Positions 11,280 through 47,127 of a stretch of DNA of 64,000 bases are shown here, piece after piece. Source of the stretch: Muricea muricata (Eukaryota > Cnidaria > Anthozoa > Malacalcyonacea > Plexauridae). Numbering within the stretch: the first letter of the stretch is position 1; every line of letters starts with the position of its first letter. The position numbers were made by a program, and so were the translations under genes. Location: NCBI GenBank assembly GCA_963855995.1, contig OY979718.1, positions 38,253,059-38,317,058 on the forward strand, given 5' to 3'. Under the pieces are notes generated by a model, which worked only from the letters and a program-made list of their open reading frames with translations, made no database searches and was not told where the DNA came from.

Positions 11280-13071
11280 ATGTCGAAAGAATCTCGTGAA
11301 GTATTAGCACAGAAACGAAGCGTTATAAAGCGAAAAATCACTAACCTTGTAAAGAAAGTCGTGCCACTGGTGCAAAAGATTGAAAGCTCACAATTCGATA
11401 TTGTATGTGCGGAACAATACTGAAAGGAACTTCGTGATTTAGATAATCAGTTTGAAGAAATGTATTTATTGGCCATTGCTCAAATCGACCCTAAAGATGA
11501 AGAACTGATCGCAAAAGACTACGAAGAACTGGATGCTCATGACGATCGAATCAGAGAAACTGTAAGTAAACTTATATTTTTTATGAACACACAAGCTGCC
11601 AAGGTTTCACATAAAACAAAATCTTCTGGTAGCAAAGACAAGAAAGCCATAGAACGGAAATGGAATAGTATTACAAGTAACATAAACAAAATAGTTACAA
11701 ATATTGAAGAAGCAGCTAATAAGCCTGAGGAATGTGATATTGAAGATCTTATCGATATTAGAAATCAAATTTCTGAATGTGAAAAATCCCTTGATTGTTT
11801 TACTCAAGTGAAATTGACTCATCTATGCCAGAATTAGATGAAGATGGCAAGAACTGGAACGACCTTCTGTCTAGTTATTTTGATAAGATTAAGTCAAATC
11901 AAGAAAAATTATCTTTACTAATAAAGCAACATCGCCGGGAGCAAATGAAGCAAGCGAAAGAGCTTGAAATTGAAAGAGAAAACCGAAATAAGCAACTTGA
12001 GGTTCAAAATACTCAACAACAGCATGAGCTTAGCTTGTTGTTGAATAAAGTCAAAACATTAGAAAGTTCTGAAGAAAATGAACAAAAAACTGTGAAACTC
12101 CCTCCATTAAGTGCCCCTACATTTAATGGGGAACCCACTAAATGGAAATCTTATTGGCAACAATTTGAAGCAACAATACATAACTCAAAGAAATTACATA
12201 ATCAGCTTCCCATGCAATATCTCCTGAAATTTCTTGTCACTAAAAGGGCTAGAGATGCAATAGAAGGAATTGATGCAGCAGCAGAAGCGTACCCTGAAGC
12301 CATTGCAGCACTTATGGCTCGTTTTGATCGACCCCAAATTATCCATCGTGCCCATGCTAGAGCCTTACTAAATGCCAAACCAGTTAAAGATGGCACGAGC
12401 TCAGAACTGAGACAGCTACACGACACCTTCCATCATCATTTAAGATCATTGAAAGCACAAGACAAGCTTGACTTTGATAGATTTATGACAGTTTTGAGCG
12501 AGTCCAAACTTGATTCCCAAACAATGATTGAATGGCAAAAATTGGCACAAGCAGAAAAGGATGTCCCTTCCTATACCAAATTCCTTGAATTTCTTGACCT
12601 CAGAGCAACAACTACTGAACTAACTCCCTATGAATGTAATCAAAGGAAATCACAGCCCTTTAACAAGAAACCAAAGTCGTACAGTCCTGGGAATTTCAAC
12701 AAATCTGAATTAATCCATGCCACTACTGCACAAGTCAAGTGCTTAGCTTTCAATGGACAGAAACACAGCATTGCCTATTGCCAAACCTTCAAAGAGAAAT
12801 ACCTTTCCGAGAAGCGTGCCTTTGTATATCAAAAGGTCTTTGCCTCAACTGCCTGAAAGGAAAGCATACGGTAAAGCAATGTCCTTCACCACATTCATGC
12901 CTCAAATGTGGCAAGAGACATCACACTCTGTTACATGTTGATGACTCTAAACCACCTGAAAACAATCCTGAAGTCCCTAAGCAAGACATACCAAACACCA
13001 ATTTGCCCCCCTCTGCAAACCCCCTCCAGCACGCAATCTACCCAACAACAATGGAACTAATGCATCACTAA
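11280..13071 (+). pseudogene. BEL gag, broken
   Basis: The ATG at 11280 (MSKESREVLAQKR) starts a charged coiled-coil N-terminus. An in-frame TGA at 11421-11423 follows, and the same frame continues to a stop at 11835. A shift then moves reading to the frame beginning near 11795, which holds the capsid signature [20 protein letters not shown] and the helical domain to about 12830. A second shift leads to a zinc knuckle ([14 protein letters not shown], then CLKCGKRHH) at about 12850-12935. These knuckles package element RNA in intact copies. At least two frameshifts and one stop make it a pseudogene. Confidence 0.85.
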
Positions 13072-13074
13072 CGT

Positions 13075-13745
13075 ACGTAGCTACACCCCAAACAAGCAGC
13101 TTGCGTACTGTTCTGATGATGACAGCCGAAGTTGTTGTAAGCTCCTCATCTGGTCAACAAACGACAGTGCGAGCCCTACTTGACCCAGCATCAACAGCGT
13201 CCTTTGTCACTGAGAAACTTGCCCAGCACCTTAAGTTAAGGAAATCGCTATAAATGGAATAGGAGGATCCCAATACCCAAACTTAAGTAACAGTATTGTG
13301 AACATTAACTTAAAATCTACTCGCCTACCACGACATCCTAAAAACAGGACTCATCCTTGGACCTAAGGGAACACCGGCAGCTCAAGAAACCCTATTTGGT
13401 TGGGTCTTGCTCGGCAATGCTAATGATCATTACTCAACAAGAGAATCAGTCACAACTCTCCATGCCTCAACCATCTACCCTAGCTGCGAAGAAACGTTAC
13501 AGAAGTTCTGGGCGCTAGAAAAACCGCCCAACCTAAAGTTCCTGTGTCCCCGGCTGACAAATTAGCATAGATCATTACAACCAACACCTCAAGCACGAAG
13601 AGAATGGTCGCTTTTTTGTTAAACTTCCTTTCAAACCACAGAAATCTACCCTCGGGGAGTCGCGAGCTCTCGCCTTACGTCGCTTTTTATCTCTTGAGCA
13701 TCGTCTTCGTCGTTCCGACCAGTTTAAAAATTATGCAAATGTATT
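13075..13745 (+). pseudogene. BEL protease and linker, broken
   Basis: The aspartic-protease motif ALLDPASTASFVTEKLAQ is at about 13172-13225. In BEL elements the canonical D(T/S)G is often DPAS or DSGS, so the first catalytic Asp is kept. After stops comes LGPKGTPAAQETLFGWVL (about 13355-13410), typical of the region behind BEL protease. The reverse-transcriptase N-terminus (GRFFVKLPFK, then LRRFLSLEHRLRR) runs to about 13745, where a frame break separates it from the long pol frame. Confidence 0.8.
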
Positions 13746-13747
13746 AA

Positions 13748-16700
13748 ATGAGTATATCTCCTCTGGTTCCTGATAATGATCTTAACAAACCCCCTTCGAA
13801 TGCCTTTTACTTGGCCCACCATGTCGTCTATAAGGATTCCGCAACTACTCCTTTAGGTGTTGTCTTCGATGGTTCAATGAAAACCACCTCTGGTGTCTCT
13901 CTTAATGATCAGCTACTCATTGGACCAACCGAATACTCCCCACTCAACGACGTCCTCATTCGTTTCCGCAGATATCCATATGTCCTTACCACTGATGTTT
14001 CCAAAATGTATCGGGCAGTCGGCTTAGCTGGAGAGGACAGAGATTACCATCGGTTCTTATGGAGAGAGAATCCCACCGATCCAGTTATTGATTATCGAAT
14101 GACACGAGTCACTTTCGGAATTGCAAGTGCTGCATTTCTTGTAACTAATTCTGTTTCTCATCTTGCCAAAGAAAACGAAGCAAAGTTTCCTCTCGCTGCT
14201 AAAGCTGTAAGGGAATCGTTTTACGTGGATGATGGTTTACCTTCAGTACAAACGAAGCAAGAAGCAATCTTGATACAACGACAACTCCAAGATCTTTTTG
14301 CAGCAGGCGGATTCAAGCTTCATAAATGGGACTCTAACTCAACTGAAGTATTGAACTGGATCCCACAAGAAATTCGAAGCAGCCAAGCCATATCTAAGTT
14401 GGGAGATTCGGACAACTTTGTTAAGACACTTGGCATGGAATACAACTCAAGTAAAGATTACTTCCAATTTTCCTCTGCAGATCTTTCCATTGATCTATTC
14501 CACCTCACCAAGCGCAGCGTATTATCTGATTTATCAAAGATCTTCGACCCACTTGGCCTCATCTCATGCATCACGATTGTTGTGAAAATCATTTTCCAAC
14601 AGCTATGGAAACAAAGCAGGGATGAGCCATTGCCACCGGACATTCAAAGACATTTCATGAACTGGAGAGAAAGCTTAGTTAAACTCTCCAACTTAAGAAT
14701 CCCTAGCTGCTACACACCAAACCATTGTCAGATCGTCGATCAACAACTTATTGGTTTCTCCGACGCCTGTGAGAAGGCTTACTGTGGGGTTGTGTATTTG
14801 AGGAGCACCGATACTACAGGAGAAGTTCACGTATCTATTGTGATGGTTAAAACACGCGTTGCACCGATCAAGAAGGTTTCTCTACCTCGTCTCGAACTTT
14901 GCGGAGCTCTCTTACTCGCCCAGATGATGCGACATTTTCAAGAAATCCTTTCCATCCCACTGCTGAATTTACATGCCTTCACCGATAGTTCTATCGTCCT
15001 TTACTGGATTTATGGCACCAGCCAACGGTTTAAGACATTCGAAGCCAATCGAATTGCAAAGGTACAAGATTTGGTACCACCTCAAAGATGGAAACACGTT
15101 GATTGTGTACAAAATCCAGCTGCAGTTGGATCTCGTGGCATACTAGCAAATGAAATTGAAGAACACCAACTCTGGTGGTCTGGTCCTGATTGGATAAAGG
15201 AAAATCATTCAAGTTGGCCATCGAAATTTACTGCACCTCCTTCACTGGAAGCTCTCCAGTCACTAGGTGTCGCAAGAGACAGCTTACAACTAGAAGAACA
15301 GAAAGAAGTTTCCATGCAAGCAACGACGGATGTAGCCCCAAAGGCACAGACTCCTGTAATTGACATTAACCCATATTCAAGTTACACTCAACTTGTAAGA
15401 GTCATTGCGTGGGTATTTCGCGTGGTCACTCGCTCAAATCTATTCAGTTCGACACCACTCTCAGTACTGGAGCTATCCCAAGCCAAGACTTGGTCAATCA
15501 AACAAGCTCAAGCACAGATGTTTCCAAACACTATTAAGACGTTAAGAAAGAAAAACCCATTGCCATTGTCTGACCCGTTGCAATCGTTAAACGTCTTCTT
15601 GGACAAAGACGGATTACTAACAGTTGGTGGTCGTCTTTCGCAGTCGAAAGATTACGAGTCTCGTCATCCACTGATACTTCATGGAAAGCATCATCTGTCA
15701 ACATTGATAATACAAAGTGAACATAAACGATTGTGTCATGCTAGTCCAAAGCTTACTTTGGGATCTCTTCAGGACATTTATCACATTATTAGTGCGCGTA
15801 GAGTCGTTCGTAAGTGGATACGTGAGTGCATGGTATGTAGGCGAGCATCTCCAAAGATAACAACTCAATTGATGGGTCAGCTACCCTCTGCACGTGTTTT
15901 GCCTACCTTTGCCAATGACAGAGTATCAGTAAACTATGCTGGACCGTTTACACTAAAGGTTGGGTCGACTCGAAAGCCAACGTACCGCAAAGCATACATA
16001 GCGATTTTCGTTTGCCTTGTTACCGAAGCCTGTCACATCGAGTTAGTTTCAGTCCTTTCTGCAGAAGCACTCCTTGCTGCACTTCGTCGTTTTGTTTCTC
16101 GAAAAGGAAAACCCACACAGATCTGGAGCAATAATGCAACTTTTTTCCGGCGTACCGATAAAGATTTAAAGGAACTTTATCGACTCCTGCAAAGATCAGA
16201 TGTCAAGGAATCCGTTATGAACTTTTGTACATCCATCCAAGGTATCCAATGGAAATTTAGCCCACCCACTGGTCCTCACCATGGCTCGGTTTGGGAGAAC
16301 GGAGTAAAATCCTGTAAACGGCACTTAAAGCTAGTAGTGGGTGAAACCAAGCTAACCTTTGAAGAAATGACAACAACACTGCGTCAGATTGAAGCCTGTC
16401 TCAACTCCAGACCCCTGATATCATCGCTCGATGCAAATGATGATGATGGAATCTCGCCCCTCACCCCGGGTCATTTTCTTATTGGACGTCCTTTAGAAGC
16501 ACTGCCTAGTCACAGATACACCGAGTCCATCCAAGGCTTAAAGAGATGGAAACTATGTCAAGCGTTGGCACAACACTTTTGGAAGCGATGGTCCACCGAA
16601 TACCTCAATGGTTTACAACCATTTAACAAGTGGAAACGTCCGAAACGAAATCTTCAAGTAAACGATATAGTCCACATCAAAGACAATCGTACCGCTCCTT

Positions 16701-16867
16701 GCAAATGGCCCCTTGGTCGAGTCACAAAGATCCATCCGGGTCCAGATAACCTGGTTCGAGTCGTTACTGTACAAACAAAGACTGGAACCTTCATCCGACC
16801 AATTGTCAAGCTGTGCCTACTTCTACCAGCTAAAGAACAACCGAGGCAAGACAATCAAAGCAAGTAA
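13748..16867 (+). pseudogene. BEL pol: reverse transcriptase, RNase H, integrase (catalytically altered)
   Basis: An uninterrupted 1,039-codon frame. Reverse transcriptase has TDVSKMYRA (about residue 80) and the polymerase box FYVDDGL (about 158). An RNase H-like part follows with FSDACEKAYCGVVY and HAFTDSSIVLYW. Then the integrase: a zinc-binding region (WIRECMVCRR, about 695) and the DDE core. Two of the three catalytic acids are replaced: VSVNYAGPF has Asn at codon 729 (15932-15934), and IWSNNATFF has Asn at codon 795 (16130-16132). In the family these are Asp (VDYxGPF, SDNxT). Glu850 (VWENGVKS) is kept. Both changes fit single G-to-A substitutions. The upstream part is in another frame, so the start at 13748 is only the first ATG after the break. 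Confidence 0.88.
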
Positions 16868-34342: not shown

Positions 34343-34348
34343 CATTCT
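34343..34348. repeat. Target-site duplication, left copy (CATTCT)
   Basis: Identical to 47122-47127. The inverted repeat fails exactly one base outside each end, so the duplication length is six. Confidence 0.88.
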
Positions 34349-35523
34349 TACGGTGGCCCAGAGATGACATGCTATCAACACACTTAAATTTTTATTTTCG
34401 CGACTTTTTTCGCTACTTTTTTCGCGAGTCGCGACTTTTTTCGCGATTTTATTCGCGACTTTTTTCGCGATTTTATTCGCGACTTTACTCGCGACTTTTT
34501 TCCATTGAACTATAATAGATCTGGAACGATAAGTCAGGGGGGGAAATTGAAGCCGACTTTGTGTTCACTTTGCAGGTAGACCCAGTCCTTTTTAAGAATT
34601 TCGTGTAAAAAATATCATTTTTGTATCCGTAAAATTCTTTATTTAAATCTACTAACAGATCTCTAAGATTCAGAAATATTTAAACAATGACAGTTGAATT
34701 TATATAATATGTTATAAAATTTGACAAAAATCGTACTACCACGGAAAAATGTTGAAGCAAAGGCGAAAATTACGAAAAATCCGCCAGATTTTGGCTACTT
34801 TTTCTGAGTTTTTGAAAGTTCAAGTAAGAACCAAGACGTGAAACCACAGGAAATATTTAACTCCATGCAAAATACATCCGTGTGTGAAGTTTTAGGAAGA
34901 TGGGACGTTTTAGGTTCGAAAAAAATGCATTTAAAAAACATTGTTTACGAAAAACGCATGAAAAACGTCAATTTCTTCATGTTTTAAAAGGGTTAAAGCA
35001 AGGATTAAAAGTTCAGAATAAAGAGGAGTACCTGGCGTTCACTGCAAAATAAGTTTGGGACTGTCTAAAGGTTTCATTATATATATTTTTTTGAGCTCAA
35101 GAGCAAAGTTTTCTTTGACACGTACAAACATTTGTAATTTTTTAAAAATATTAAAGTCAAAATGCTCACTTTTTGCTGCAGATAGGTGTAAGACAGTTGG
35201 AACTAAACAGGAAACCTGGTCTGAATCCAAAATAATGATGTCTTTCGACAAAAACAGTGTATTTCTTGCCAATTTTTGCTCGAAAACAAAAATTCTCACT
35301 CCTCGAAAACCAAATCCGACCTCTCCCCAGTCTTTTTGAATGTTGATTTTCCTGCGCGCCGGCTTCAGCCAATCATAGGTTTAAAACACTGAAGTTATCG
35401 TTCCAGATCTATTATAGTTCAATGCTTTTTTCGCGATTTTATTCGCGACTTTTTTCGCGACTTTTTTCGCGACTTTTTTCGCTACTTTATTCGCGACTTT
35501 TTTCGCGACTTTATTCGCGACTT
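34349..35523. repeat. Left terminal inverted repeat with CGCGACTTTTTT array, split by a hAT-like element
   Basis: The tip TACGGTGGCC... is followed by ACACTTAAATTTTTATTTT and then about 15 imperfect copies of a 12-bp unit TCGCGACTTTTT (variants TCGCTACTTTTT and TCGCGATTTTAT). The array is interrupted at 34503-35424 and resumes to about 35523. Without that insert it is about 245 bp. Repeated subterminal motifs of this kind often bind transposase; here that is inference. Confidence 0.85.
34503..35424. mobile_element. Nested hAT-like non-autonomous element, 922 bp
   Basis: A 30-bp perfect terminal inverted repeat starts CATTGAACTATAATAGATC at 34503 and mirrors at 35395-35424. The flanking octamers CTTTTTTC (34495-34502 and 35425-35432) are identical, as expected for hAT, although the host array is itself repetitive. 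The inside has no recognisable protein. Confidence 0.75.
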
Positions 35524-35572
35524 GGACTTTGAGTTTTGTGATTGCATTGCAATCGTGTGATTGTCTGGACTC

Positions 35573-38500
35573 ATGGACGTCGACATGGCAACAAGCAAAG
35601 CATCAAACGAAACAGAGTCAATAGAAAAGGTACTAAATATGTTTAATTCACTGAGGTTTTTTTCGAATGCTATAATTAATATTGCCTTTTATACCACTAC
35701 TAATATATGAATGGGATATATTAATCATCAATTCATCATATGGGTTTAGGTGCGCAGATTTCTAACAGATAGAAATGTCGAAAAAAATGTTGTAGAGGTC
35801 TTCAGAGAAGAGAAGGTACAGTGCAATATTAAATAATTTACAAATAATTGTATTAAATTGCACTGCGCACTTGTAGTACTATTCCGGGTTTAAAATCAAA
35901 CGGCGATTACAAACTAGCACCGGCGCGAAGCTGGAGTGCGATTTATAGTCACACAAGCTTGATTATAGACCAAAATAGAACGACACGAAATGCAATTACC
36001 AATGTTCTACTCTATCATATTTATTTTGAAATCTTTTAAAATTATTCTTGTTCAGTAATACAAACGACTCCCCCCATAGGCAGCCCAAAACTTGGTGTAG
36101 AACGTTCTAAATGTCGATTTGTTGTTAAAACTGTCCCCATTCCTCTGAACTTGTCGCGCGCCATATTGAAAATCAATTCATATATTATAAACAACATGTT
36201 GTTGATTTTCAATATGGCGCGCGACAAGTTCAGAGGAATGGGGAGAGTTTTAACAACAAATCGACATTTAGAACGTTCTACACCAAGTTTTGGGCTGCCT
36301 ATGCCCCTGGATTTCGTGAAGTTCTGGCTTAGCAATGAAATTTTATCATAGAAATAATAGATATAGTCCATATAGTATGCATACTTCTATTTTTTCAACG
36401 TGAAAATTTTGTCGCCTCAAAATGGTGGATTTTTAAAGGCATTTTGACTAGTTTCAGACTCCTGCAAGAGAAAATTACGCGCGGCGAAAGGAGTGCGACT
36501 TTCGTTTTTCAAGCAATCTCGTTCCCCGAGCACGCGATCTTCTACGGGAAGGAACGAGTGGCTCTGGGATAATCCATAACCGGAAGCCCAGAATCTGGGC
36601 ATTGCTTGTAATGTAATATATACTGCGCATGTACGAAAGGCAACCGCGAAGTGTGAACCTTTTATCATCTTTGTTTATGTTTCAAAACTACATTTGTGCC
36701 TTTAAACGTGGTAATTAAAACCTGTCAATCAAACAGTTGGAACTGTGAAACAAAAAATGTGTAATTGACAAGTTTTAATTAGCACGTTTTAAAGGCACAC
36801 CTCTACGTTTGAAACGTAATTACGTGAACAAGTATGATAGGAGGATGTGTCGCGGCTTTTCATACATGCGCAGTACAAGTAATGCCCAGATTCTGCGCTT
36901 CCGGTTATGGATTATCCCAGAGAGATTGGGCTCTCGCGAGAAAAATTGGAGACATGATTCGTGAACCAGTACACATTCTATCGATATAGTATTTATTATA
37001 GATATCGATATAGTTATTACTAGTATTTTATACACATATAACAGGAATCATTTAAAAAAAATTATGAACCGGTGATAATCGAAACACAAGAGGGTGTATA
37101 CATGTTATAAACGTTTATCAGTTAGTTATGTGATAGAGTTTTCAATTGGTGCTGTTATCTCAATTATTTGTCTTACTTAAAGTTAAACGTCGGGTCGTCG
37201 AATTTTCTGTATAATATTCCTTTACAACTGTCAGAAACTCGCCTTATTGTTATTTTCAATATTTTGTCACGTGATAGTCGGTCAGTCTCACACGCTGTTT
37301 GTGGCGTCTTAATAGTTTTCAACTCAACTTCGGATCAAACAAAATCTAGGTTATTTTTATGTTACGAGTCACAAATGTATTGCCTATGACCTCATCATGA
37401 ATTCGAGACTGGGATCAAAGAACGGAACACTTGTGATGAACATGAAGGAATAACCAAAATATAAATATATTGTAAGCACTATAAATACATTGTAAGCACA
37501 AATATCTTGGAAACTGATAGCAACAGGGACCGCGGAGCGTATTTAAAAGTGGGATGCTTACCTTCCGTCCCTGCTTTGGGCGGCACTTCGTCATATTACG
37601 GCTCCGTGCCGTCGCTCGCAAAAAAAATTCATCCGCATCAAAAAGCGGGGGACCATGCCCCCCCCCCCCGGCTCCGCGGTCTCTCAGCAATAGTAAAACA
37701 AAAATACAGCATATTTCACACGAATAATTGTGCTTTATGAAGCGTGGACAAAAAGTGAGCGTTTCAAAGGTTTTTTTGAGCGATGGGAATTTGTTTTTCA
37801 AAACTGTGTATGCGGGTGGCACCCATGCAGACAATTCATCGGCATCTTTTTGAACTTTTTTCTTCATCTATTGGCTGGAATTTGAGAAAAACAATATCAC
37901 CTATTAATAGGTGAAGACAAGAAAGTTCAAAAATGATTATGTCAACACTGCAAAATGATTTTATTTTATTTTTTAAAATCTAGATGGATTTTGTTGCTAT
38001 TCAGAAGGCAACTGATAAAGACCTAGAAGTGCTTGGTTTGACAAAAAAAGGTGACTTGTTTGCTTTAAGGTCTTTTGTTGATTGCAATACAGCAAGTGAA
38101 AAAGTGTGTGAGGAACGCGTACAGAAGAAAAAGAAGTTGTTGCAACTTGCTAAGGAGATTAAGACTTCAAGGCAGAAAGAGAGACCTGGAAATTCTGAAC
38201 CTAATATGGCGCTGGCATCTGAGCTTGGTGTTGCTGAAAAACCGAAGTGTAGTACAAGAAAAATACAAGTTGGTTGGTTGCATTATGATTCTTCCAAGAA
38301 AAAGTACATATCAGTACGTTACTCTAAAGGTGGTGGTTCGCGTGAATTATCTGTGAATTTGAATGCAGGCCTCAGAGAAATCATTCAATCCACAAAGAAA
38401 CTTTTTTTTCCAGATGGAAAAAGTTTTCATGGCAATGCCATAGATATGACCTTCGCCCTTGGACGATTTGATTGCAAAGTTATAGAAGCGGAGAACCTTT

Positions 38501-41500
38501 CCATTGGAAAGTACATAAGTGATAACAAGTTGACAAGGGTTCGGCTGTACCTAATGTCAAAGCATGACGAGGAATGCAGTAGAGATGAATTGCCTGAAGC
38601 CCAATTTGCCACTGGAGGATCAACTAACAAAGATCATGTGAATGAATATACTACTTATGGTAGTATATATAGCAATAGGGATTCTCTTGTTGGCACATCT
38701 ACTGAAAGAGCACTGTTGAGAGAGCAACAAAATGAAGATTTACAAAGATCACTTGAAGAAGACCAAGCTAAAAATAGGCACGAAAGTGAAGAAACAGCTA
38801 AGGTAGAAACATTAAGGCGCCAACAGTGTTTGCAAAGTGCTCGAGAGTCAAGAGTTCCAGCTGCTCCTTCTCCTGGTATACCGTATGTTCGAGTTTCTGT
38901 CCGTCATCCATCTGTCGGTGTGCAGACCCGATCATTTTGTGAGTTTGAGAACATGGCAGCAGTGTACGATTGGGCAGGGAGTCTTGCACTTACTCCCGAA
39001 TTTTTCATCTTATCAAAGTGTGATGCTCCTGGTATATTATTTCCAGACACATCGGTTACACATGTAGACAAACATTTGTTAAGTATGACAGAAAGTGATT
39101 CCATGCCCTCGTATCCTGGAAATCACATAGACTTCATTGGATTTGGTTCAACTAAGCATGATAATCTGGAGTCACTGGGGACACCATTTTGCGAAACACT
39201 ACCAGCACTTTGCGTGGAGGTTGAAAATAAAAAAAGGGAAGGCTTGGGGATTATAGTTGTCAAATCTTTAGGCACTGTGTCTTTTTCATATGGGTGGTTG
39301 TCATAATATAGTAACTTTTAATTGGTTAACTTGTCAAAAATATGTTTAAATATTTACCCTCATCCAGTGAAATGTTCATGGTAATATCTAATTTTACCTG
39401 CTGCTAAACTGCAGTCATCTACCGCATGCGTAATATAGAATGATAAAGCAGCAGTATGTTCATGTTGCCACTATATACACAGCCAAAAACGCCACAGACT
39501 TGCTGCAACCTGCACGTTTTTGGCTGTGAACTGCGCATGTAAAAATTATGTGCGAATTAACTGTTTTGTTGATCCTGTTGCACGTACTGATCTGAAACTA
39601 CAACTGGATAAAGCTTCTGCCATACATAAATGAAGCCAATGGCGGCCATGTTGGACTATCCACTATAAATTGGTACTATTGACGTAGTAGAAGAGAGTTG
39701 TACAGTTTTAGGTTATCGGTGGGAGTGGATAAACATCGTGTGAATAAAAATTTTTTACAAATAATGTCTTTTTCGTTTTAAATTTGCCGCTGAATAACTA
39801 ACGAGGATAGTCCAAGATGACCGCCATGAGTTTATTATCACGTGTTTTAAAGCTTCTTAGAGCCATTAGAAAAGTCGTGGCAAGCTATGTCTTCGCAGTT
39901 AATATGGAAAAGTCATTTGCTTGATAATTTGACCAGTTTTTACATGTCGCGATTTGATTTGCAGAAATTTTGATCGATTATAGTATATCATCTCATTATA
40001 AATATTCTGGCTTCAAAATTGAGTCACTGAATTCAAAAAAATGCGCTATCCAGTTATTTTCCAGATCAGTAGTTGCAACTAAAAATTTATAAATATACAT
40101 CCTACGTAATTAAACCTCTTCCCCTGCAGGTTGCAGTTTCTCGAAGACAAAGACGTTCTGACAATTGAGGACAAACCACCTCAACAAATGCTTACTGATG
40201 ATGTCCAATTGTAAGTTAAAAATAAAATATTCAGCTTATTTGGAAAATTATCTGAAGCGCAATGTATATTAATGCGTACTGTTGTCACTGTCACAGCTTT
40301 TTAACATTTCAATATTGTCAGATAATTAATAATAGTCTCCTTAACATACCAGTCTCATTTGGTATCTCTTCTAAACTCAGAGACCACATCTATGCAGTAT
40401 GCCGCAGGTCTATATTTTGCATTATGTATTATCAATAAGATTTTTCATGTAATATAATGCTAATAAATTTGACGTAACTTTTGTCTTTGAAGGGAAAACT
40501 TTAGCGATGACCAGGACCTAATGTCACACGTAAGTTGTTTAAGTTCAAATTTCAAATCTAAGAGCAATATTTTAATTCACGAGGTAATAAACCAACCATC
40601 CACCTATTTTTACACGATAATACTGGACACTTGATGAAGTACGTTGATCGACTAGTAGATTCAGGTATAGGTGATACATGCATATATGATTTAGTAATCC
40701 CAGCGTCTAAGATGTCGTTTGGAATATTCAACTCGCAATTGAAATACCGTCTTTTGCACATCATTAATTTTAAAATATTGTACCTCAACTATTAAGTTTT
40801 TTTAAGGCAACCAGGTATAATTATAATTGTCACGTTTCGCTAGCTACTCTGTACGTGTTCGACAAATTAACGTACTCGCTGAATGTTGCAAATCGGTAGA
40901 GAATATTGGATGGACTAATCTTGCAAAAATTTATATCTCTTTGAACATAACTCAAACCCTATCCTAATAGCAACCCTGCCACTTTGTCATAGGAATGGAT
41001 GAATGGAGCTTTACAAATTTAAATCTCCATCAGTGGAGCTTGATCCTATGCATGACCAGGGCTCAAAATAACGGACGAAATGACTCAGGTGAAAATGACA
41101 ACTTCATTCAACGATCAAAATCTATTTTTACCAGTCAAAAATACCGACTTTGCATTTTTTGCTTTTTTTGTTTGCTCTCGTGTATAATTCTTGGAGAGCG
41201 CGCGAATATGTGGCCTTTCAAAATGACCGGTAAGGTAAAAATTAACCATTCAACATGTATTTTTTGGCCGGTCATTGTCCGTTGATCGGCTGTTATTTTG
41301 GGTCATGTGCATGGTCAAATTTCTAGATAAATGATAAACAAGTATATAATCTATTTCTATCAATCATTACTTATTTTACTCAGGACACAACAATAACATG
41401 TGCGCATCCCCAAGAGTCGTCTGGCCAAGTCCATGATTCATCCGATGTAAGTGGTGATTCGTATGGTGAATACACTGGATCACTTGCAGCTATTGAGAAT

Positions 41501-43183
41501 CACCAGGGATCAGTGAATGATCGAGGAAATGAGAATAACCATTCGAAACCTATTAGGTAATGTCTTATCTTCTTCCCTACACATGTCAAGTGTCCCAAAA
41601 AACATTAACATATTTCATATTTCCTATTCTATTAAAAATGACAAAGAATTTCTAAAGAATACAATTTTTAATGGCCCGCTTTGAGACACCCTGCACAACC
41701 ATGTGAGAACAAGTGCACTCCGTTGTCTGTGTATATGTATATGTATATGTATATGTATGCATGGTGTCCGCCGTGCTTATTTGACTACATACCCAAGAAT
41801 AAGGATCGTATTCAACTGATCTTATCATTTGCACAGATCTTGGCATGTATTAAGCCATATTCAAGCGACCGGTATGCAACATTATTGAAATCGTTTGAAC
41901 ACTGCGTTGAGCAATTTTCAACGATGTTGGATCAATTTTGACTATTTCCCTTCCAACACTGTCAACCCACGTTTAAACCGGGTTTTACACTTTTGAGTAA
42001 TTATGTATTCCATTTCGATAATTTCATGAATACTGTATGACATGTCGTTCCTTATTTTCTTCACAACTTTGCTAACAGGAAGGACATCGGGGTAAGATAG
42101 CTTCCAATTATTCCTGTTTCTTCCTTTTGTTAGGGTCTTGAGACTGAGACGATCCCGTGTTATGGAAGATCTTCTTAAAGAGTTCCGTACTGTAGATATA
42201 ATGACTTGTCAAATAAAAGTTATCATGATTGATTATCATGGAAACGCGGAAAAAGGTGTTGACTCTGGTGGCATCTTTCGTGACGCCCTTGCAATTTTTT
42301 GGCAAGAATTTTATATTTCTTGCTGCCTTGGAGAGAGAGGAAGAGTTCCGTTTTTGAGGCACGATTTCCAAACCGAAGAGTGGACAGCGGTAGCCCGCAT
42401 AATCGTCAGGGGATATTTGGATCTAGGATACTTTCCAGTGACACTAAGCCATGCATTTGTCATCTCTGCGATGTTTGGGGAGAAGGCAGTGTGTGAAGAT
42501 ATCCTTTTACGATCGTTTAAACAGTACCTTGCTCCGATCGATGAACAGTTATTATGCAGAGCGCTGGCTATTTACGTTAAGGATGGCGAAGAAGATAATG
42601 ACGACGGCAAAGATGATGATAGCGTAGACGATGATGGCGACAATGATGACCTCATTGATCTGTTAGATCGGTTTGGGTGTAGAACATTACCAACCAAAGA
42701 TAACATCCAAGGCTTGATAATGGAAATTGCCCATAAAGAAATTATACAGAAGGCACAATACGTTGCTGATTGTTGGAGATGTATTTTCAAGTCAGAACTG
42801 GGAATCTTGTCATCGGTAAAGAAAAAATTGGTGATATGTACGCGTCTTTGGAACCTACAACAAAGAAAGTGCTAGCCATGTTGGATGCTGTGTCGGATAC
42901 AAATGCAGAGCGATCGGCATTGGGTCATCTAAAACGCTTTATACGGGGACTGGACATTACTCAGCTCAAATCGTTTGTTATGTTTGTGACCGGTGGTGAT
43001 GTTCTATGTGTTCCAACAATTCATGTCGATTTCACAAAGCTGGAGGGATTTGAAAGGCGTCCAATCGCCCACACATGTGGCTGTGTTTTGCAACTTCCAT
43101 GTTCATACAACAGTTACACAGAATTACGCACCGAGTTTACAAATGTTTTGGCAAAAGGAAAGTGGCAGAATGACATATTGTGA
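35573..43183 (+). CDS. Transposon-borne HECT E3 ubiquitin ligase (SAM-like, Ub/UBX-like, HECT)
   Basis: Proposed exons: 35573-35629, 35750-35815, 37984 to at most 39303, 40130-40210, 40493-40529, 41384-41556 and 42134-43183. Phases agree at every junction except the donor of exon 3, which I could not fix. Start is MDVDMATSKASNET. A SAM-like domain spans exons 2-3 (VRRFLTDRNVEKNVVEVF, DLEVLGLTKKGDLFALRSF). A beta-rich module follows (VGWLHYDSSKKKYISVRYSK, FFPDGKSFHG, RVRLYLMS). Then a helix like the one before UBX domains (EQQNEDLQRSLEEDQAK) and a UBX-like fold (YVRVSVRHPSVGVQTRSF). The last exon is HECT: VDSGGIFRDALAIFW, KEIIQKAQYVADCW, and AHTCGC with the thioester Cys at 43076-43078. One base seems lost in an A-run near 42819-42828, shifting the HECT frame. 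The protein would transfer ubiquitin to substrates; its role for the element is unknown. Confidence 0.78.
36071..36308. mobile_element. Palindromic MITE in intron 2 of the ligase gene
   Basis: Arms of about 110 bp begin ATAGGCAGCCCAAAACTTGG and meet around AACAACATGTTGTT near 36190. Frames on both strands across it are mirror artefacts. Confidence 0.7.
36562..36922. mobile_element. Fold-back MITE in intron 2 of the ligase gene
   Basis: Outer arms CTCTGGGATAATCCATAACC (36562) and mirror (to 36922) enclose further inverted blocks: AATCTGGGCATTGCTTGTAA, and inner GTGCCTTTAAACGTGGTAAT against its counterpart near 36780-36800. Non-coding. Confidence 0.65.
37209..37320 (+). repeat. Dispersed repeat shared with 49560-49672
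   Basis: Both places carry AATATTCCTTT, CTGTCAGAAACTCGC and GATAGTCGGTCAGTCTC in the same order and orientation. One copy lies in the transposon intron, the other outside it. Family unknown. Confidence 0.55.
37526..37683. mobile_element. MITE with GGGACCGCGGAGC ends and a poly(C) run
   Basis: GGGACCGCGGAGC at 37526 mirrors GCTCCGCGGTCTC ending at 37683. Flanking octamers TAGCAACA and CAGCAATA agree at six of eight bases, suggesting a hAT-type 8-bp duplication. A run of 12 C residues (37658-37669) lies next to the right end. It is in intron 2 of the ligase gene. Confidence 0.55.
39639..39827. repeat. Inverted repeat, MITE-like, in a ligase intron
   Basis: TGGCGGCCATGTTGGACTATCC and its near mirror GGATAGTCCAAGATGACCGCCA bound about 190 bp of AT-rich DNA. 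A separate hairpin (GCCAAAAACG against CGTTTTTGGC) lies at about 39482-39526. Confidence 0.5.
41050..41315. repeat. Inverted repeat, MITE-like, in a ligase intron
   Basis: GCATGACCAGGGCTCAAAAT on the left and GTTATTTTGGGTCATGTGC on the right are imperfect mirrors, with further paired AATGACCGG segments. Non-coding. Confidence 0.4.
41728..41760. repeat. (TATATG)n microsatellite
   Basis: About five units of TATATG, inside the last intron of the ligase gene. Confidence 0.8.
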
Positions 43184-43291
43184 CTTTGGGAAACTTTGCG
43201 CATGCTCAGTTTGATATTGCTCAATATAGACCTGCGACTTTACATCCTGAAGGAACTGTTATGACGTTGCCCATTAATTTTATAGTATAAT

Positions 43292-43387
43292 TTCGTCATT
43301 TGAGACAGGCTGCGTACCTAAGCAGTAGCAACAGAATATGAATTCTGTTGCTACTGCTTAGGTACGCGGCCTGTCTAAAATGACGAA
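43292..43387. repeat. Near-perfect 96-bp palindrome downstream of the ligase gene
   Basis: Arms of 46 nt with two mismatches (core GCGTACCTAAGCAGTAGCAA) surround a 4-nt loop at 43338-43341. It starts 109 bp after the ligase stop codon. It could be a tiny MITE or a structured 3' end of the mRNA. Confidence 0.8.
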
Positions 43388-44138
43388 CCTTTTATCTGCC
43401 TCTAAATTAATATAAATGAGCTCAAACATACTCGCTGATTAATATTTGGTTCAGCAAATGAAGAGTTAGTCCAAAAGTCTACGATAAGATGCACAATTGC
43501 TGTTATTGTTGTTTTTTGTTATAGTATTATTATAAATGGCGTACTTGTAATGTGCGTGTAATGTTGTGTTATCATGTATACGCGGGTATTACTGAATTTC
43601 TAAATGTTACTGAAATTTTAACAAACTATAGCTGCTAGACGAGCTGCCTTTGACATACATATAGACAAGTTTACATAATTAAGTAAATGGCAATATTTGA
43701 AACAAAAAAGGCTGCATACGTAAAAAACTATAAGCCATGTGAAAAGCATCTCACATTCACAGCAGAAAAATGGAGGATGTCGATTTTACCAGAATGCACT
43801 GCGGACTGAAATCATTTAGAAAGGCAAATTAAAGACTTTTGAAAAAAGACTAAAGACAGAAGACAATAGGTTATTTTCTCCCTTCTGTTAAATTTTCAAT
43901 CATTGGCTCTGCATCTTGTCATCTTTTCCCAGCTAGTCTTATTTGATACCCGTAATTCTGATAAAATCGACATACCGTCATCCTTTTTGCCATGAAAGTC
44001 CGTTAAGAAACGGATTTTCGATTTAAAATATCAATATCTCAGCTGAACTTGTCTCAAAATCTTACTACAATATATCAAAATTTAAGTTAGCCATTTGCGG
44101 ATAACATGTAACTTATTTAGTTTTGATAAAGGCACTAG

Positions 44139-44282
44139 CACACTGCAATTTTTCTTGCCACTTGCAATGAGAGATGTAAAATTGTCAAGAGATGTAAAAC
44201 ATACCAAGCATTCTTCACTAATTAACATCTCTTAAGAGTAGAATTGCGTTGAAAGTTGCAAGAAATTTGCATTATGTGACAC
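44139..44282. repeat. Inverted repeat, MITE-like
   Basis: CACACTGCAATTTTTCTTGC and GCAAGAAATTTGCATTATGTG are imperfect mirrors, with a second AGAGATGT / ACATCTCT pair inside. Confidence 0.45.
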
Positions 44283-44355
44283 TACTTTAACTGCCCCAGT
44301 TTTTCCTGCTAGATTAAAAAAAAGAGGAGAAAATTTCGAAAGAAATACCGTTCGC

Positions 44356-44403
44356 CAATTATTTTCATGTGCAATTATTTTCATGTGCAATTATTTTCAT
44401 GTG
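44356..44403. repeat. Three perfect copies of a 16-bp unit
   Basis: CAATTATTTTCATGTG is repeated three times head to tail. Confidence 0.9.
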
Positions 44404-44598
44404 CAAATTTTATGTATAATCAAGTGAACATGAGCAGCACCAAAACAACTTACAGTAGGCTGTGCTGTGACGTGATCATGACCATGACACAAAGGTTAAT
44501 ATGATCCTTTAAGTAAAGTAAAGTAAAGGTAAGGTTCCATACTCTATGTAAATAACAAAACAAAGCAAAGCAAATTAAATTCCTATTCTCATGACCAG

Positions 44599-44670
44599 AG
44601 ATTTGCCAGGCTGAAACGGATTCTTGTAATGAATATGAGAACCTATATAACTTTTGATGATGCCATCAAA
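44599..44670 (-). repeat. Penelope-like element 3' fragment
   Basis: It matches 30890-30962 (AGAGATTTGC, CGGATTCTT, ATGAATAT, GCCATCAA in order), which is the 3' end region of the minus-strand Penelope-like copy. It sits in the spacer between the two transposon genes. Confidence 0.55.
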
Positions 44671-45044
44671 AAAATAGCATTTAAAAGAATTTTTATCAGT
44701 TAGGCTTCATGTTTCCTACGAAATTTAACTAACAAAAAATATTCTGAATGATTACTAGTTTTACATATTTGTTTAGAAATATGATATACTAATCATACCA
44801 AACGTTTTAGTGATAGTTGTCTGCCATATTGTGTAAAGAAATGGGATGCTTTTTAACTTGTACTTTTTAACTTATTATACTCTAAGTAATTATTTCAGTA
44901 TTTTTATATCTTAACTCTTGATTGTTGTAATATAGTTAATATTTAATCCTAATTGTATCTTGAGTTTTTCAGTCTTCCTTGCGTTGACTGCCATTCAAGA
45001 ATTTTATAATAAAATTTGAAAATTTGAAATACTTTTCATTCTTA

Positions 45045-45411
45045 GGGACCGTTCATTATTTATACCTTAGGGGGGCACCGAAGAGAAATTAAAAAAAGTA
45101 TATATAAAAAAATTACCCAACCGCTTTGGGTGTTCAAATTCTTTTTACCCAAGCTCCAATAGAAATCCAAGATTTTAAAGCTGCCTTGTAAACTTAACTT
45201 GAAATGACTGTTTTATTTGTTTTTGTCATTGCGTTTTTCATGTATATGTTATTAACTGCGTTCGTTTATTAGCTATTATTATTCATTGTAGTATGTTCTC
45301 GTATTCTCATTGGTCTTTTTTCTTCACCCAACCTTTTAGAGGTTTGAAAAATCAGCTACCCACCCAATTTCTCTTCGGTGCCCCCCTGAGGTATAAATAA
45401 TGAACGGTCTC
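45045..45411. mobile_element. MITE with GGGACCGTTCATTATTTATA ends
   Basis: Inverted ends of about 50 bp run on to CACCGAAGAGAAATT. Flanking octamers TCATTCTT and TCATACTT differ by one base, as for a hAT-type duplication. It lies between the ligase and transposase genes of the large transposon. Confidence 0.65.
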
Positions 45412-45469
45412 TCATACTTTGCAATTGCAAACCAGTATTTATCTGACAACACCTATGTGTGTTTGTGAG

Positions 45470-46800
45470 TCATGATAAGTCATCAATCAGACTAAGAAGT
45501 GTTATGTACAAACGTTCAGCTTCCACTGCTGTTTCAGGCATTTGTAGTCTTTCATCGTGCATAATCATTTCGGCAAGTTCGTTAAAGTGTGGACTGCATC
45601 CTCTTTGAGGGGCATTTTCGCCAAATTCTTTCTCGGCGATTTCGATCTCTTCTAGATCGGCTGGTGTAGTATAGTCTTGCGTGTTGTTCAGTTGGGGAAG
45701 AAAATACAAGATGTCTGGACGACCTGAGGGTGATTCTAGATTAGCTGAAGGTCTTATTCTGTGCGTGTTCCAGTGTTGCGCTACCTTGTGAAGTTCGTTC
45801 TGGAGCACGTCCATGAAACAAAACTTCAAACATTCTCTGTGAATGTTGTCTTCATCAGAGAACAGACCTCTATCCCTCAAATCCTTAAAATATTTGATCC
45901 ACCAATCCGTACATTGCTTCAGCAAAATGGACCACCATGCCTCGATGCGTTGGTTAGCAACCGATCTTCCATACATGAAACTTTTTTGTCCTCTAAAATC
46001 ATCTTCCGCAGACCTTCTAAAAATCGCTGAATGACTTCAACATGTATATTTTCTATACCACGGTCTGCTCTTACGATACGTGGAGTACCTTTTATTTGCC
46101 GGACGTAATCGAGGTAGTACTTCGCAACAATTTTGGGGTTATTGTTTGAGCTTGCCACTTCCAGCCAAAGAACCTTTCGACTGTACCCGTCTATTGCCCC
46201 GTGCACACAAAATCCAAATGGTTTTAACTTATCATAACCATCTATGTGCCATAGATAGTTTGGCCCTTTCGTGTGATACTTTCTTTTGCGTAGCTTGTGT
46301 CTTGATCTAGCCTCCACCCCTTCTGGATCGAGTATTTTCAAGACTCGTCGGACAATGTCTCTCGTAAAAACCAAATTACGCTCGTTCGTTAGCCTCTGGT
46401 GCATGGCCCTGTAACCAAGAATTCTTCCACTTTCTCGTAGTTTCTCTTCAATGGCTTGCACAACGTCGTCCATATCGGTCGGATTTTCTCTTCTTCGGCA
46501 ACCGTGGCTTCGTAGTATTCTTCTGAGCTGGCGTAAGCTTAGCCGAACACCGTGAAGGGTCACAAGGAAAGCCATAATTTCTGGGGCAGTATAACCAAGT
46601 CTAAAGTAGTTTACAATGGCTTCGTTACGTCCCAATTCTTGTTCTTGGTTAGCAGGACAATATTGGGGCAAAATACCCTGACAACCAGCTATTAACAACA
46701 TAAAGATAAATATAAATTTCAACATTTCTGCAGCCTCTTGCCTTTTACAACGTATAATAACACATTCGAACTTGTGCAGCGCACGTGCGCACCCAAGCAA
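45470..46800 (-). CDS. IS3EU-type DDE integrase (transposase) with one frameshift
   Basis: Read on minus from 46800 (MLGCARALHK; MLKFIFIF lower down is another possible start). A helix-turn-helix region has NYFRLGYTAPEIMAFLVTLH and LSLRQLRRILRSHGCRRR. Next comes ILGYRAMHQRLTNERNLVFT, as in IS3-type integrases, then the catalytic core: YLWHIDGYDKLKPFG (first Asp), VRADRGIENIHV (second Asp) and NQRIEAWWSILLK (Glu). The first part ends in a stop near 45919. The Glu-containing part is in another frame to 45470. A lost base in an A-run near 45985 (GACAAAAAAGTTTC on minus) explains the break. The product would cut and join the inverted repeats. Multi-copy integrase-core proteins of this type are common in fish and cnidarian gene sets. 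Confidence 0.82.
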
Positions 46801-46837
46801 GTAATCAGAAATCAGAAATGCTGAAGTACCGAAAACT

Positions 46838-47121
46838 TAAAAGTCGCGAAAAAAGTCGCAAAAAAAGTTGCGAAAAAAAGTCGCGAATAAAGTAGCGAAA
46901 AAAGTCGCGATTAAAAAAGTCGCAAAAAAAGTCGCGAAAAAAGTCGCGAATAAAGTAGCGAAAAAAGTCGCGATTAAAAAGTAGCGAAAAAAGTCGCGTT
47001 TAAAAAAATAGCGATTAAAAAAGTCGCGAAAAAAGTCGCGAATTGCGAAAAAAGTAGCGAAAAAAGTCGCGAAAATAAAAATTTAAGTGTGTCGATGGCA
47101 TGTCATCTCTGGGCCACCGTA
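46838..47121. repeat. Right terminal inverted repeat with CGCGACTTTTTT array
   Basis: On minus it reads TACGGTGGCCCAGAG, then TTAAATTTTTATTTT and about 20 units of TCGCGACTTTTT and variants. It mirrors 34349-35523. The array ends about 40 bp upstream of the transposase ATG, so it could also contain its promoter. Confidence 0.88.
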
Positions 47122-47127
47122 CATTCT
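47122..47127. repeat. Target-site duplication, right copy (CATTCT)
   Basis: Pairs with 34343-34348. Confidence 0.88.

Follow-up and report, generated by a model that had tools for sequence, protein, structure and literature searches.

Results

The window analyzed here is a 64,000-nucleotide stretch of the Muricea muricata genome (contig OY979718.1, positions 38,253,059 to 38,317,058). At 34349-47121 it contains a DNA transposon of 12,773 bp with the TAC...GTA termini of the IS3EU type, in which a DDE transposase gene on the minus strand faces a multi-exon gene on the plus strand that we assign to the HECT E3 ubiquitin ligases. The left end opens with TACGGTGGCCCAGAG at 34349, and the reverse complement closes the element at 47121. 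The terminal inverted repeats are 105 nt long and 94% complementary, and they run into arrays of ~12-bp repeats, mirrored inside both ends, which may represent multiple putative binding sites of the transposase. An earlier note on this DNA had described mirrored ends, a 6-bp CATTCT duplication and two convergent genes, and all of these were found, the ends and the duplication at their exact positions (Table 1). Its term "complete" holds for the structure of the element; the element is not intact, both genes being frameshifted and three later insertions being present. Of the domain order SAM/UBX-like/HECT given there for the ligase, the HECT part stands, the SAM-like part is recognized by eye only, and UBX comes from some relatives and was not detected in the window protein. 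Taking the results below together, we consider it likely that the element descends from an IS3EU-type lineage in which the HECT E3 ligase is a core gene, and that this copy has decayed.

Both open pieces of the window transposase match Pfam rva_4 (PF24764) above its cut-off (E = 9.3e-20 and 2.3e-16), one of them also matches Pfam rve at 2e-4, under the cut-off of that family, and the D, D and E motifs were read by eye. The ligase gene was modelled as five exons with in-phase joins at GT/AG sites; because an AG directly precedes the first ATG, a further exon upstream is possible. Pfam recognized HECT only in the C-lobe piece, slightly below the cut-off of 23.9 (E = 1.4e-4, 22.1 bits), and the spliced model without the C-lobe matched no Pfam family, UBX included. 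The HECT assignment of the window gene is supported by its relatives, its predicted fold and its catalytic cysteine. The structure model of the close relative P0129 (86-90% identity to the window pieces; predicted local distance difference test score, pLDDT, 90.6) gave Foldseek and VIA matches to HECT domains, and the catalytic C-lobe cysteine, contained in the window open reading frame 42770-43183, is invariant in 16 of the 16 rows of alignment A2. When a model of the N-terminal part (predicted template modelling score, pTM, 0.33) was searched with Foldseek, mainly PI3K and USP7/ubiquitin-like matches were returned; a UBX structure at rank 34 (E = 2.5e-3) was not relied on. Full-length transposon-type HECT relatives are short (P0126, 765 aa; P0158, 751 aa), and no relative was found in the viral contigs scanned with the HECT alignment.

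The assembly searched comprises 453 Mb in 74 contigs. A search with the left tip gave at least 27 matches (tip-match counts are lower bounds): ten are tips, and the other 17 match the 12-bp arrays of the same five elements in part. The ten tips form five inverted pairs, 11.0, 11.4, 12.8, 13.6 and 22.0 kb apart, and this search returned no unpaired tip; because the tip recurs at ten places as five inverted pairs, the ends of the window element are not a product of chance. All five copies (A, the window copy, and B-E) match all five HECT exons with 92.7-100% identity over the matched part, exon 4 of C and exon 5 of B being matched partially only, and the transposase is matched in all five with 97-99% identity. 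TAC...GTA termini are present in A, B, C and E, and D retains a single tip, TAT. The 6-bp duplications are exact in A (CATTCT), B (CGAAAC) and C (CAAAAA; TTTTTG in gene orientation); E has CGTTCC with four extra bases at the left end, and D has lost its right tip.

The window copy looks dead. Relative to its sisters, HECT exon 5 differs in length by 2 bp and the transposase by 1 bp, each difference causing a frameshift, and three stretches are probably later insertions because they are absent from all four sister copies. In copy E the transposase is interrupted by a 2-kb insertion, and a larger insertion lies close to the left end of the copy. The transposase frame of copy C is open over 429 codons, the sisters otherwise carrying lesions. 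We considered that the transposase might use a programmed frameshift and rejected this, since the shift is private to the window copy among those aligned and the frame of C is open. Single-base differences may be assembly errors; the other lesions are 2, 4, 5, 10 and 22 bp long. The copies differ by 1.6-2.3%, nearly all of it private changes (B was excluded, its own insertions disturbing the alignment), and the family is, to judge from these sequences, a recent burst from one source that held both genes.

The same arrangement extends far beyond this family. A genome search with the transposase gave at least 154 matches, 150 among the matches listed, and 150 of 1182 candidates were scored. Twenty divergent transposase loci (41-66% identity to the query) were read, each with 8.1 kb downstream: at 16 of them a clear HECT homologue faces the transposase, and at none does one lie on the other strand. 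HECT fragments are present at L034, a diverged HECT (Pfam 1.2e-12) at L037, and a HECT recognized by motif only at L036. L019, L020, L024 and L031 are complete elements, bounded by TAC ends and exact duplications, that hold both genes, and L037 is likewise a complete element with TAC ends and an exact duplication around its diverged HECT; at L021 the ends are present and only 4 of 6 duplicated letters agree. In the other 14 of the 20 loci tip pairs were not found, and there the far end may fall outside the stretch read.

The search from the HECT side gave 125 matches, which were merged into 105 loci. A convergent transposase lies within 10 kb of 48 of these, at a gap of ~1-3 kb in 44 cases, and one further locus has a non-convergent transposase only; random placement gave a mean of 0.41 pairs and a maximum of 3 in 1000 trials. 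Four of the other 57 loci were read downstream (C2:41827376, C3:21403819, C1:77360770 and C2:4774893), and all four face a more diverged transposase, identified as rva_4 by Pfam at L039 and by tblastn at the other three. At L040 inspection by eye revealed another transposase fragment, on the opposite strand, which faces the adjacent HECT locus C3:21408093. Could the pairing be an artefact of assembly or clustering, for example of transposons nested in HECT-rich regions? Nested insertions are frequent in the copies of the family, but the orientation bias of 48 to one, the narrow gaps and the complete elements whose exact duplications enclose both genes contradict this explanation, and we reject it as having a negligible probability.

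Mantel tests show that transposase and HECT distances are correlated, with r = 0.913 for 17 loci and r = 0.709 for a set of 11 with one locus from each family; in both cases 0 of 9999 permutations reached the observed value. The 11-locus trees have 4 of 8 splits in common, as many as 1 of 2000 label shuffles reaches. Two other HECT splits with support 100 are missing from the transposase tree, where the competing splits have support of 25-45; the single conflict supported on both sides concerns L018, L019 and L020. Between these three families HECT shows 0.195-0.343 nonsynonymous substitutions per site (dN) with saturated synonymous divergence (dS), the transposase shows the same pattern, and the HECT gene is under purifying selection between the three families tested. 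These results bear on the idea that HECT entered a single family by chance, as a passenger host gene that was captured in one event, reached a few copies and does nothing for the transposon. Capture of host genes by DNA transposons is common, and damage to the HECT gene in each of the five copies would be in keeping with a passenger. Against it stand the recurrence of the same convergent pair where the transposases are only 49-64% identical to that of the window, with 48 HECT loci in all, and the purifying selection and correlated distances between families. The multi-family pairing contradicts the idea, and we reject it as very improbable.

The N-terminus of the transposase was also compared. 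A P-x-Y-P motif lies near the start in 54 of the 120 transposase relatives listed, and in 40 of the 54 judged it is preceded by a hydrophobic, signal-peptide-like stretch, as scored by a simple hydropathy test and not by a trained predictor; the control was a less strict form of that test applied to HECT-side proteins, which 28 of 103 passed. By eye, a signal-like start is present at L018-L022, L024-L027, L029-L035, L039 and L041, and many transposases of the clade have a conserved (V/I)LPxYxP-like start after the hydrophobic stretch. The signal-like start was not seen by eye at L028, L038 and L040, and the start of L023 is missing. A zinc-ribbon-like start takes its place at L036, L037 and L042, and at L036 and L037 a zinc-ribbon-like motif similar to it also opens the HECT protein; none of these Pfam matches reaches the cut-off. 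A signal-peptide-like start is unexpected for a nuclear enzyme. A lineage-wide link between this start and UBX was tried and rejected as not clean: L028 lacks the signal-like start, and its HECT protein aligns through the UBX region without a Pfam UBX match.

Table 1. Features of the transposon and its flanks, in window coordinates.
Feature	Position	Strand	Remark
Target site duplication CATTCT, left copy	34343-34348	.	direct flank
Left terminal inverted repeat, opens TACGGTGGCC	34349-34453	+	pairs with 47017-47121
Left subterminal ~12-bp repeat array, unit TTTTTTCGCGAC	34405-34502	+	
Later insertion (probable) in left array, approximate boundaries	34483-35424	.	absent from four sisters
Left ~12-bp repeat array, resumed part	35425-35528	+	
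HECT gene exon 1, modelled: SAM-like start (by eye), beta-grasp-like domain, UBX-like region	37984-39293	+	
HECT gene exon 2	40130-40210	+	
HECT gene exon 3	40493-40529	+	
HECT gene exon 4	41384-41556	+	
HECT gene exon 5: entire HECT domain including Cys of RRPIAHTC	42134-43183	+	
Later insertion (probable), approximate boundaries	44840-44986	.	window copy only; absent from four sisters
Later insertion (probable) with 47-nt inverted ends, approximate boundaries	45044-45413	.	window copy only; absent from four sisters
IS3EU-type DDE transposase (rva_4), signal-peptide-like N-terminus (by eye)	45470-46725	-	1-bp length difference breaks frame
Right subterminal ~12-bp repeat array	46834-47080	-	
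Right terminal inverted repeat, closes CCACCGTA	47017-47121	-	
Target site duplication CATTCT, right copy	47122-47127	.	direct flank

Near-perfect inverted repeats lie within the element at 36075-36303, 36562-36922, 43292-43387 and 45044-45412 and are probably small nested elements or hairpins. Elsewhere in the window, reading frames of a Pao/BEL-type retrotransposon (DUF1759, Peptidase_A17, DUF5641) occupy 11795-16867. Eight transposase matches lie on one strand at C1:96509566-96570472, the last six spaced ~8.2-8.3 kb, and this region is apparently a tandem array containing such a transposase.

Discussion

Based on our findings, the ligase probably belongs to the core genes of a large IS3EU clade and is occasionally swapped. 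Dozens of related elements share the gene pair and its layout, so that the ligase looks like a regular component of the transposon and not like a chance passenger. Since distances and trees agree in part, while L018-L020 conflict and L042 likely combines genes of different lineages, HECT appears to be mostly inherited with the transposase and sometimes exchanged. The proposal of the earlier note that the two gene families are amplified together in one transposon is supported by the convergent pairs at many loci, the correlated distances and the partly shared trees. It had also suggested looking for tip pairs that enclose both genes with 6-bp duplications, and comparing the two trees. Both genes are enclosed by five of five pairs, 11.0-22.0 kb apart, with exact duplications in three copies, four extra bases in a fourth and the right tip lost in the fifth; tips without HECT, which it had named as the refuting case, were not seen in the five-copy family. 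In this genome the distances correlate and 4 of 8 splits are shared, but the L018/L019/L020 conflict departs from congruence.

Several observations weigh against a core gene of this kind. The HECT gene carries a lesion in each of the five copies, and within families its dN/dS values, calculated from few changes, lie between 0 and 3.5, a spread that decaying copies would give. No HECT was found within 8.1 kb of the L025 transposase, 53 of the 105 HECT loci (C3:21408093 included) were neither paired nor read, and 102 of 149 transposase loci have no nearby HECT match of the type searched, partly because diverged HECTs such as that of L037 escape the search. In the trees, L018 groups with L020 by transposase (support 85) and with L019 by HECT (79), and at L042 (C2:4771400-4774900) an L037-like transposase (54%) faces a HECT that the search with P0129 detected (42%), so that L042 likely represents a ligase exchanged between transposase lineages. 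The catalytic column is only at least 90% conserved in the wider 47-row alignment A3, and P0165 lacks the catalytic cysteine by eye. The UBX domain is likewise patchy. It exceeds the Pfam cut-off in 3 of 10 relatives scanned (P0158, P0221 and P0222) and in the L026 ligase, and stays below it in L019 and L030; no Pfam UBX match was obtained for the window protein, for P0121, P0122, P0123, P0126, P0165, P0179 and P0189, or for L024 and L028.

We suggest a plausible mechanism for how the ligase would serve the transposon. The element would move as DNA, with the transposase acting on its ends. The N-terminal part of the ligase would bind a partner, and the HECT cysteine, from its predicted activity, would add ubiquitin to it. 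The UBX region would then bring in the p97/Cdc48 unfoldase, and a particular protein would be pulled off or destroyed; UBX is a kind of domain that recruits p97 in endoplasmic reticulum (ER)-associated degradation. The most likely targets would be a host protein (one that silences transposition or blocks it, or a repair protein), or the transposase itself after strand transfer. ClpX acts in this way on the bacteriophage Mu transposase after strand transfer.

If the target is a host factor of silencing, chromatin or repair, which we regard as a real possibility, the role of the ligase could be compared to that proposed for the TET/JBP dioxygenases of fungal transposons including IS3EU. The passages of the fungal study on these genes describe them as proposed for escape from silencing and as passing between transposon lineages (PMC12730594), and HECT likewise appears exchanged. 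A ligase directed at the transposase, which would ubiquitinate the transposase-DNA complex and call p97 to dismantle it after joining, or would limit the amount of transposase, seems to us somewhat unlikely. The correlated transposase and HECT distances, the UBX in some relatives and the similar zinc-ribbon-like motifs, below the Pfam cut-off, with which both proteins of L036 and L037 open would fit such a target. Co-inheritance alone, however, yields correlated distances, and L042 together with the L018/L019/L020 conflict suggests exchange of HECT between transposase lineages. From the signal-like starts one could further imagine that the transposase passes through the secretory pathway and that the ligase is a retrieval machine, which would extract ER-held transposase to release or destroy it at the right moment; we find this quite improbable.

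If the ligase is indeed a core gene of such transposons, many of the HECT-domain proteins labelled "uncharacterized" in the gene sets of corals, molluscs and fish may be encoded by transposons, and apparent expansions of HECT gene families would be transposition. A transposon of this kind would also allow a direct test in a eukaryote, by removal of one gene, of ubiquitin control over transposition or over host defence. Named protein relatives come from the corals Acropora, Montipora, Desmophyllum, Orbicella, Stylophora and Pocillopora, the mussel Sinanodonta and notothenioid fish, the fish ones at the protein level. Two source contigs (71,396,920 and 627,155 bases), each with a transposase and a HECT relative, were matched by equal base count alone and serve as a lead only.

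IS3EU elements, in the passages of PMC10045372 that treat them, have TA..TA ends, usually 6-bp duplications and a DDD/E integrase-like transposase; the window element shares the TA..TA termini, the 6-bp duplication and the integrase-like DDD/E transposase, and the main text of that paper contains neither "hect" nor "ubiquitin". The fungal IS3EU elements with TET/JBP genes, as the corresponding passages of PMC12730594 present them, have TAYGG..CCRTA ends, terminal inverted repeats of more than 30 bp and 6-bp duplications, and carry alpha-kinase genes too; TET/JBP cargo in fungal IS3EU and other elements is proposed there to allow escape from methylation-based silencing. They resemble the present element in that the extra gene is opposite in orientation to the transposase, the fungal cargo enzyme being proposed to act against silencing, and differ in that the cargo there is alpha-kinase and TET/JBP and here HECT; "hect" and "ubiquitin" again occur 0 times in the main text. 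Extra enzyme genes in IS3EU are already known. For an IS3EU with a HECT ligase in such a position, the searches made of the open-licence literature yielded no description, Repbase entries being outside that scope; PMC11645255, a paper containing "IS3EU" and "ubiquitin", is by its passages unrelated to such elements. A repeat of Cottus fish with a blastx match to the ubiquitin ligase G2E3 was left unclassified (PMC5638112); it shares with our element the repetitive nature and the ubiquitin ligase match, and a transposase, ends and a mechanism are absent from the passage concerned. With the cellular ligases UBR5, HUWE1, E6AP and UBE3C the transposon proteins have in common the HECT fold over ~300 residues and a sequence match in the C-lobe. 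They differ from cellular HECT ligases in their low identity over the whole domain (~11-18%) and in their architecture, the transposon-type relatives being short and their N-terminal parts SAM-like, beta-grasp-like and, in some proteins, UBX.

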